Below are positions 2,662 to 51,821 of a DNA stretch of 59,138 bases, in pieces. The DNA is from Chloroflexota bacterium (lineage in GTDB: Bacteria > Chloroflexota > Dehalococcoidia > UBA2979). The stretch spans positions 131,524-190,661 of the forward strand of contig QGNP01000001.1 in NCBI GenBank assembly GCA_003228125.1. Direction: 5' to 3'. The position numbers were made by a program, and so were the translations under genes. Numbering within the stretch: position 1 is the stretch's first letter; each line of letters begins with the position of its first letter. A model generated the notes under the pieces. The model did no database searches. It was not told the origin of the DNA and was given only the letters and a program-made list of their open reading frames with translations.

Positions 2662-3705
2662 ATGAATGAAGGAAAAAAGATTAAGTTGACTTCTTTTGCT
2701 AGTTGTGCTGGTTGAGGTGGAAAACTGAGTCATAAGACCCTTGAACAAGTTTTGTTTAAATTAGATAAATATACAAATGATAATAACTTAATCAAAAGTG
2801 ACACTTTTGATGATGCAGCTATTTATAAATTAAATAATGAATTAGCAATAGTTCAAACAATTGATTTTTTCCCACCTGTCGTCGACGATCCTTATCTTTA
2901 TGGAAAAATTGCAGCCGTTAATGCTCTTTCAGACATTTATTGCATGGGCGCAAAGCCAATAACAGCTCTTAATGTCTTTGCTGTTCCTGAAGATCTTGAT
3001 GAAGAATATCTTATTCAGATTCTACAAGGTGGAAACGATGCAGCAAAGGAAGCAGGTACTGTAATTATTGGAGGGCATACTATTATTGATAAAGAACCTA
3101 AATATGGCTTAAGTGTTACTGGAACTATTAATCCAAATAATATTATTTCTTCTAGTGATGCAAAGATTGGCGATAATATTATTTTAACTAAAAAAATTGG
3201 TACGGGAATTATTTTAACTGCAGAAAAAAATTATTCAGTATCGACTGAAATTTATAAAGAAGCTATTGATTCAATGATTCATTTGAATAAAAATGCTGCT
3301 GCAATTGCTTTAAAAAATAATGTAAATGCCATGACTGATGTGACTGGCTTTGGATTGTCTGGTCATTTAATTAATGTGGCCAAAGCCAGCGATGTTTCAA
3401 TATTATTGAGAGTTATTGATGTACCACTATTCAGTGGTTTTAACGATTTAATTTCAAAGAATATTAGCACTGGTGGAGCTGATCGTAATTTTGAAAGTTT
3501 TTCTATGCATATAGATAATTTGCATAGTTATGATAGTTCGGTTTCTTCGATGCTTTTTGATCCACAGACTTCAGGCGGACTACTGTTATTTGTAGATAGT
3601 AAAAATACTATGAATTTATTAGATGAATTAATTGATGCCGGTGAATATGCAGAAGTTATTGGTGAGGTAATTAAAAAAGATAAAAGCTCTATCTCGTTAA
3701 TATAA
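2662..3705 (+). CDS. selD: Selenophosphate synthetase, itself a selenoprotein (in-frame UGA)
   Basis: Makes selenophosphate from selenide and ATP, the selenium donor for selenocysteine and selenouridine. The natural start is ATG 2662-2664. The frame then crosses a TGA at 2713-2715 in the context SCAG-U-GGK and continues unbroken to 3705, for 347 residues. That TGA is residue 18, where other SelD proteins have the catalytic Cys or Sec, and Lys21 three residues on is the usual catalytic lysine. A caller that stops at TGA would start at TTG 2752 and lose the active site. A weak SECIS-like hairpin (C2740-T2742 with A2747-G2749, loop GAAC) lies 24-34 bases past the TGA. The AIRS fold follows, with DDAAIYKL, IGGHTI and the C-terminal FDPQTSGGLL. 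Selenocysteine decoding genes (selA, selB, selC) are not in the window. Confidence 0.95.
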
Positions 3706-45638: not shown

Positions 45639-46499
45639 TTATGCAAGCTTTGCTGAGCCTACTATGACTTCCTCTTTATTATCTTTTTCGACTGAAACTC
45701 TTATAGATTGCTTATTATCATAAGAATAACTCGCTGTTATTTCTTCTCCAGCCCATACTGGCCTTACAAATTTTAAAGATAATTGACCACCATTCGTAAA
45801 ACGTGCTCCGTAATCCTTAGCAAGTAAACGAGAAATTAATCCAAACCCAAATGCTCCTTGTGCTAAAGGCCCTGGGTTACCTTGCTTTTTTGCAAGGTCA
45901 ACATTTGTATGCCCATTGATTTCACCAGGACCTTCAAATTGATTCATTCTTTCCTGATTAAGCAATATTTTTAATTTTGACGAGATATTATTTATATTTT
46001 TTTCAGGAATAGATATTCCGCTTTTCTTCAAAGGAAATTTTTTAATTTCTTCTTCAGTTAAAGAAGCAAAATACCAACTTCTTGTATTTCTCTGTACAAT
46101 AGTATCTTGATCTTTAATTTCTGTTATCCAGTCAACATACCCTCTTCCTTTTCTTGTTGACTTCTCGATTACTTTACCAGTAACTGTTAAAGGCACTGAG
46201 TGAGGGATGTCTTTAAAAAATTCAACATTTAGATAAACTAAGCCTGCAGCAATATCTCTGAAAGGAGTAAAAATATTTTGACCACAGTAATATCCGATAT
46301 AATGAGGTGCAAAATCTTTGTATAATGAAACATCATCATCATAAAGCGAACACCATCTTTTAATATCTTCTAAAGATATTGTCATTGTACATTGATTTGG
46401 AAAAGGACCCACATTTAAATCTTTCCAAGTTATACTTGTAGAAGTTGCTGTTTTAGGAATTTTATTAACTGCAGGAATTTCTATTTTGTTTTGGGTCAT
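45639..46499 (-). CDS. Two-domain MaoC-like dehydratase
   Basis: A 286-residue fused double-hotdog protein, the joined version of the split pairs elsewhere in the window. Half 1 has LEDIKRWCSLYDDDVSLY and the half-domain core; half 2 has EGPGEINGHTNVDLAKKQGN and GPLAQGAFGFGLISRLLA as the MaoC central helix. The hydratase Asp-x4-His pattern is not clean. It is the first gene of the minus-strand run that continues to 35015, with a poly-T stretch between it and the LLM gene. Confidence 0.83.
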   Translation of the reverse strand: MTQNKIEIPAVNKIPKTATSTSITWKDLNVGPFPNQCTMTISLEDIKRWCSLYDDDVSLYKDFAPHYIGYYCGQNIFTPFRDIAAGLVYLNVEFFKDIPHSVPLTVTGKVIEKSTRKGRGYVDWITEIKDQDTIVQRNTRSWYFASLTEEEIKKFPLKKSGISIPEKNINNISSKLKILLNQERMNQFEGPGEINGHTNVDLAKKQGNPGPLAQGAFGFGLISRLLAKDYGARFTNGGQLSLKFVRPVWAGEEITASYSYDNKQSIRVSVEKDNKEEVIVGSAKLA

Positions 46500-50771: not shown

Positions 50772-51821
50772 ATGAGCAAAAAAAAATTTCAAATATTATC
50801 AGCAAGTCATTCATTTCAATTAGAAATTGAATTAATTAATGATAATATTTGGTTTCATAAAGATGATATGAGGGAAAAATTCGGTTGGATTTTAAAGCCA
50901 GAAGGTCTATGTAAAGAAGAAGTATGCATTCCTTTAAAGGAACCATTACTTTTACTTAATAATGACCATGTAAACATTAATCAATTTGCTAAAGAATTAA
51001 ATAGGCCAATTGCATCTGAAGTTAGTAAAGGAGTCATCGTTTTAGGCGAATCTGCATCTGATAGAGCTAATTGGTTATATGCTGAACAAGCACCTGATTT
51101 TGAATTACCTGATTTAAATGGCAATATGCACAGACTTTCAGAACATTTTGGTAAAAAACTATGCCTTGTAGTGCATGCGTCTTGGTGAGGATGCAGAGAA
51201 GATTTGCCAGTTTGGCAAACAATTTATTCAGAACTTTCCCAGTATAACTTTTCAGTATTTTCTATAATGGAAGATAAAAATATTGAAGATGCTAGACCAT
51301 GGATTGAAAAATCAGGAGCTAAATTTCCATGTACAATTGACACCAATCATATAATTTCTGATTTATATAATATGTTTAATGTCCCCACTGTAGTGTGGAT
51401 TGATGAAAATGGGAAAATTGTTAGGCCAAATGATGTTGTCGTAATGAATGAAGGTGGAGCAAAATTAGTTAAAGTTGATCCAGAAACTTATATAGAAAAA
51501 ATCAGAAGATGGGTTATAAATAATGATCCACCAATGAATTCAAATGATGACTTTATAAAATATAAACAACAACGTGAACATACAGACAATGAACAAGTAG
51601 CTCGTGCAGAATTTTTAATAGGACAATGGTTGTATAACAATGGAGAACTTGAACTCGCTACGCAGCATTTTGAAACAGCTACTGAACTTTCACCAGCAGA
51701 CGTAATGATACAGCGTGGCACGATGTCAATGAGAGGAATGGATCCAATGAAAGATTATGGTCCAATTGCAGGTAATATTATTAAAAAAGGCCTTAGATTG
51801 TATAGGCCTATTAGGGATTAA
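50772..51821 (+). CDS. Selenocysteine-containing thioredoxin-fold protein with TPR-like tail (UGA at 51186)
   Basis: One continuous frame of 350 codons crosses a TGA at 51186-51188. The context is VVHASW-U-GCREDLPVWQ, where TlpA/ResA and AhpC-type redoxins have their active site (ASWCGPC), so the TGA is read as Sec139 and Cys141 is the resolving residue. UGC has one residue between the two redox atoms instead of two. Residues 1-95 are a separate domain I do not recognise, 107-245 are the redoxin fold (APDFELPDLNG, VPTVVWIDENGK), and 265-320 resemble a TPR helix pair. A SECIS-like hairpin follows the UGA. There is no signal peptide, so it is cytoplasmic. It sits between the gamma carbonic anhydrase-like gene and a crotonase, in the same direction and with spacings of 22 and 9 bases. 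Confidence 0.9.
51203..51219 (+). promoter_or_regulatory. Candidate bacterial SECIS element
   Basis: The sequence TTTGCCA (51203-51209) and TGGCAAA (51213-51219) form a 7-bp perfect stem with a GTT loop, or a 6-bp stem with loop AGTTT. The loop G is 22 bases after the TGA, within the 16-37 base window known for SelB-recognised elements, and the loop carries the G-U pair needed for SelB contact. Confidence 0.7.

Follow-up and report, generated by a model that had tools for sequence, protein, structure and literature searches.

A TGA triplet splits what would otherwise be one open reading frame on the forward strand of a 59,138-nucleotide stretch of Chloroflexota DNA (hereafter the window), which raises the question of whether it ends a gene or is read as an amino acid and, if read, what kind of protein it belongs to. 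Translation of the window gives a single frame from an ATG at 50772 to a TAA at 51821, with one internal TGA at residue 139 in the context LVVHASWUGC, extending to HASWUGCREDLP. An earlier note, made by reading the sequence alone, had placed this TGA at 51186 in a single frame on both sides and had expected ordinary gene calling to report two false genes. Both points hold: the standard ORF list gives two ORFs, 50772-51188 and 51204-51821, so that the gene is split by standard ORF calling, while the call of a selenoprotein can be checked independently. Our comparisons confirm the TGA as a predicted selenocysteine (Sec) codon at the active site of a protein resembling thioredoxin. Its 349-residue product is very probably a TlpA/ResA-type thiol oxidoreductase of the UGC-containing selenoprotein family, in a sister subfamily to the NCBIfam model NF041054. 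SelB and tRNA-Sec would decode UGA codon 139, guided by a stem-loop downstream. The features of the locus are collected in Table 1.

Table 1. Coordinates of the selenoprotein gene, its parts and a related gene in the window.
Feature	Position	Strand	Details
Predicted selenoprotein gene	50772..51821	+	349 codons and a TAA stop; Cx4CxP domain at the N-terminus, then a ResA/TlpA-like redoxin domain and a helical TPR-like tail
N-terminal domain, residues 1-104	50772..51083	+	Cys47 and Cys52 (Cx4CxP) invariant in 39 homologues
Redoxin domain, about residues 105-251	51084..51524	+	Pfam AhpC-TSA; ResA/DsbE fold (Z 17.7-18.9)
TGA codon, predicted selenocysteine 139	51186..51188	+	Homologue comparison, sel machinery
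Cys141 (TGC), paired with Sec139 in the UGC motif	51192..51194	+	Invariant in 43 aligned family members
Putative SECIS stem-loop	51203..51219	+	7 bp; 5-bp core kept in all Sec homologues; loop G 51210
TPR-like helices, residues 272-309, C-terminal tail	51585..51698	+	TPR_2 E 0.0024; helices in model
selD (selenophosphate synthetase)	2662..3705	+	Own Sec codon 2713-2715 (SFASCAGUGGKLS); supplies selenium for Sec synthesis

Selenocysteine machinery and stop codon usage

The genome containing the window (1.1 Mb in 22 contigs, 84% complete) carries selA (523 bits), selB (302 bits) and selD (364 bits, inside the window itself), as well as a tRNA-Sec gene (selC) with the anticodon TCA (72 bits); the earlier note had pointed to selA, selB and selC as something to look for. 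The selD gene has an in-frame TGA of its own, making it a second selenoprotein gene in the window. It was identified separately from a scan of the window for TGAs lying between two open stretches, which returned 58 cases and, among the 30 listed, no further redox motif. The genome has a third predicted selenoprotein, a redoxin with LLRHFGUIFCRKQ, encoded on the reverse strand at G000:C11:16937-17218 (L146).

The window is AT-rich, with a GC content of 31%, and for such a genome one might consider that the organism reads TGA throughout as an ordinary residue such as tryptophan. However, TGA terminates 10 of the window's 55 long ORFs, so it is still a stop elsewhere, and this usage contradicts a change of code. 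The same TGA also occurs in homologues from GC-rich phyla, the alternative residue at the aligned position is Cys rather than Trp, and a tRNA-Sec with a TCA anticodon is present, all of which makes a reassigned TGA exceedingly improbable.

Exchange of selenocysteine and cysteine among homologues

In the closest comparison available, a relative from the same genus with 69% identity, the TGA stands at the identical codon. The ratio pN/pS between the two genes is 0.48 upstream of the TGA and 0.25 downstream of it, and the latter value argues that what follows the TGA is selected as protein in the same frame. More broadly, 89 homologous genes were collected from a genome-wide scan, seeded on the motif itself, and a class-wide search. 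The position of Sec139 is occupied by Sec (TGA) in 57 of these and by a Cys codon in 32, which is the exchange that the earlier note had proposed looking for, and [U/C]xC is found in all 89, having been found with that pattern. The 57 Sec homologues are spread over many phyla, and at least two changes between Sec and Cys are needed on the tree.

Were the TGA a true stop, the locus would hold either a 138-aa protein and, from 51204 on, another gene, or else a gene in decay, and the two ORFs of the standard list are what one would see. Such a stop is nevertheless very improbable given that 57 homologues from various phyla keep the TGA, the alternative being Cys, that purifying selection acts downstream of it, and that termination would break off the redoxin fold inside its active-site motif. 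A pseudogene was rejected in view of purifying selection on both sides of the TGA. The reading as selenocysteine is also where the earlier note had staked its claim, on three points that all went its way: homologues read through the TGA, a Cys exists at the aligned position, and the sel genes are present. The sel genes, the conserved TGA and the purifying selection on both sides together support insertion of Sec.

Of 24 tested genomes with a Sec form, 21 have a SelA that scores above the cut-off; the three that fell short are G028 (73% complete), G057 (81% complete) and G183 (fragment only). A further 13 genomes with a Cys form were tested, and SelA passed in 6 of them, where it may serve other selenoproteins. 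One Cys form of the same family, with CSC in place of UGC (G003:C32:52991-53920, L009), comes from a genome that is 96% complete and has no selA; its motif reads ASWCSCRLC, with Sec changed to Cys and an additional Cys gained nearby.

Several further observations were made while comparing family members. In one genus of the class (g94) the family occurs as two copies on one strand, separated by about 1.1-1.3 kb (G187:C4, G217:C4, G244:C117, G252:C27, G260:C72 and G268:C45). The copy on L117, a contig labelled as part of a Klebsiella pneumoniae MAG, is almost the same in the tree as that of a Deltaproteobacteria MAG, and this contig is probably misbinned. An in-frame TAG in the redoxins of genus g95 was considered and set aside as an ordinary gene end, with the next gene following in frame.

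A stem-loop within the coding sequence

A stem-loop begins 14 bases downstream of the UGA, with arms TTTGCCA (51203-51209) and TGGCAAA (51213-51219) around a loop of GTT (51210-51212). Its 7 bp and its loop G, 22 bases past the TGA, are positioned as the earlier note had described for a SECIS-like hairpin. The 5-bp core of the stem is paired in 56 of 56 distinct Sec sequences versus 11 of 32 Cys sequences, a contrast that amounts to few independent switches, as the Cys sequences are confined to few clades. With two tree-independent Sec/Cys pairs, the stem contrast was unable to reach significance.

The two codons that pair in the stem were more informative. Among the 56 Sec forms, Leu145 is encoded solely by CTG or TTG, and all but one have Gln at residue 149, whereas additional Leu145 codons occur in the Cys forms and residue 149 is frequently Glu or Asp. 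Within the Sec rows, the tree requires at least five changes of the third base of the Gln149 codon, and every Gln CAA in those rows is paired with Leu TTG and never with CTG, i.e., C-G has become U-A with zero mismatches. The tree holds at least five independent compensated stem changes of this kind, and these are the strongest evidence for the stem-loop being, as predicted, a working SECIS element. The folding energy gives none, being unremarkable for the 45-nt hairpin piece (z -0.6), and a search of the region with Rfam matched no model, returning chance hits only. Judging by this comparison, the stem-loop, being inside the coding sequence, restricts the codons of Leu145 and Gln149, and the locus illustrates cleanly how a SECIS element constrains a protein, with Gln149 in 55 of 56 Sec forms set against the Glu or Asp often seen in Cys forms.

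Domains and predicted fold

We generated a whole-chain structural model from 43 relatives, with Sec modelled as Cys, which reached a pLDDT of 94 and a pTM of 0.91. The N-terminal domain was also modelled with confidence alone. The earlier note could name no relative for this domain, and that remains the case, as it has no credible Pfam family or PDB sequence match. Structure searches with it were too weak for use (best Foldseek E 0.2; best VIA-align Z 6.4, to 5h3k), and usher N-domains were rejected as relatives on VIA-align Z values of 5-5.5. A search for the domain in 197 genomes of the class gave 28 hits in 25 genomes; within these 197 genomes it was not found apart from the family, the compared hits being family genes, one of them truncated at a contig edge.

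The redoxin domain is matched by AhpC-TSA/Redoxin in Pfam, and its closest structural relatives are ResA, DsbE and TlpA by PDB sequence profile, Foldseek and VIA-align (Z 18.9 to 3gl3 and 17.7 to ResA), in agreement with the ResA/TlpA-like core first suggested for it. Judged by sequence motif and not by coordinates, Pro205 in NVPT occupies the cis-Pro site known from thioredoxin-like oxidoreductases. The window protein shares this motif and the fold with ResA, TlpA and DsbE. In contrast to their CxxC, it has UxC, with one residue fewer between the redox pair, and it differs further in its extra N- and C-terminal domains and, as judged by eye, in showing no evident signal or anchor. The genome also encodes ordinary CxxC TlpA-like proteins (L142 and L145), so the window protein is not its sole one.

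The TPR-like tail named in the earlier note also stands, with helices in the model and a TPR_2 match in 11 of 11 members scanned (best 1e-7), the match being weak in the window's member. Inspection of the N-terminus by eye revealed no hydrophobic stretch and no evident signal peptide or anchor, and the product is therefore probably cytosolic.

Place among known selenoprotein families

The earlier note implied a new kind of protein, and this implication fails, since both the architecture and the UGC motif match a published selenoprotein family. A "Prx-like (UGC-containing)" family was described in GOS in 2008 with 46 Sec and 855 Cys sequences (PMC2398784), appears as "UGC-containing Prx-like protein" in PMC9312934 and is called "UGC-containing TlpA disulfide reductase family protein" in a 2026 review (PMC13188914). 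The window protein has the defining AhpC-TSA/TlpA domain with a UGC motif. Compared by description rather than letter by letter with a member sequence, it shows no difference from the family of PMC2398784 and PMC13188914, with which it shares the AhpC-TSA domain, the UGC Sec and the occurrence of both Sec and Cys forms. The window protein is a well-supported added member of this published family and no discovery in kind.

Its best NCBIfam match is NF041054 (WAxxUGC_long, "ResA-like WAxxUGC motif-containing protein"; E 4e-64, 217 bits), the top model match for every family member checked. The two have the same order of parts, namely the N-terminal Cx4CxP domain, the UGC redoxin and the TPR-like tail, and the N-terminal domain and tail are standard parts of a known family. 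The window protein, however, falls short of the curated cut-off (217 versus 300 bits), has HASWUGC where NF041054 has WASWUGC, and has a shorter segment past the redoxin domain. A tree of 90 members separates a clade with the NF041054 members from a second, sister clade with the window protein (support 100/100); the second clade holds 26 rows that are all Sec and 31 that are all Cys, and members above the cut-off do not share a clade with the window protein. Nine second-clade members scanned against the model, one of them (L089) given without its N-terminus, scored 158-276 bits, and none reached 300. As judged from these scores and the tree, the window protein sits in a sister subfamily that NF041054 does not name. 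The NCBI model misses this subfamily, in its Sec and Cys forms, in Chloroflexota, Rokubacteria, Pseudomonadota, Acidobacteriota and Actinomycetota.

Possible activity

As to substrate, catalytic direction, the role of Cys47 and Cys52 and cytosolic location, what follows is what we infer. Sec139 would be the attacking residue, on a disulfide or a peroxide, and Cys141, two residues on, would resolve the intermediate by closing a selenenylsulfide that a cellular thiol could then reduce. As the earlier note put forward, the UxC spacing would plausibly give a tighter selenenylsulfide ring than CxxC. The invariant pair Cys47/Cys52 may pass electrons to this selenenylsulfide, and a partner may be held by the TPR-like tail.

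The same selenoprotein might instead act chiefly in peroxide reduction, as a GPx- or Prx-like thiol peroxidase in which Sec139 attacks the peroxide and Cys141 resolves. A Sec with an adjoining Gly recalls the GPx active site, 8 of 11 members are matched by GSHPx of Pfam (best 9e-6), and the family was first named Prx-like. Peroxiredoxins carry the motif PxxxTxxC, and GPx has a catalytic Gln and Trp-Asn motifs. The former is absent from LVVHASWUGC, and inspection of the sequence found neither of the latter. Disulfide exchange is favoured because of the NVPT cis-Pro motif and the best fold matches, which are ResA, TlpA and DsbE, and a chiefly peroxidatic role is a genuine, though less likely, alternative. 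A further and rather improbable reading gives the sister subfamily its own distinct activity, with the family-private Cx4CxP domain as a second redox or metal-binding centre exchanging electrons with the Sec-Gly-Cys site in one chain, as a self-contained and previously undescribed cytosolic selenium relay.

Gene neighbourhood

A redox role for the surrounding CoA-ester cluster, suggested in the earlier note, was not supported. The CoA-ester neighbour genes are syntenic only in the one same-genus relative, and we discarded conserved neighbourhood as a functional clue on that basis. No neighbour recurring family-wide was found, with gene calling in GC-rich loci being crude, and actinobacteria have clade-specific neighbours. 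Within the window, a 286-aa ORF on the reverse strand (45639-46499), with no NCBIfam match at 1e-5, lies beside CoA-transferase and luciferase-like genes.
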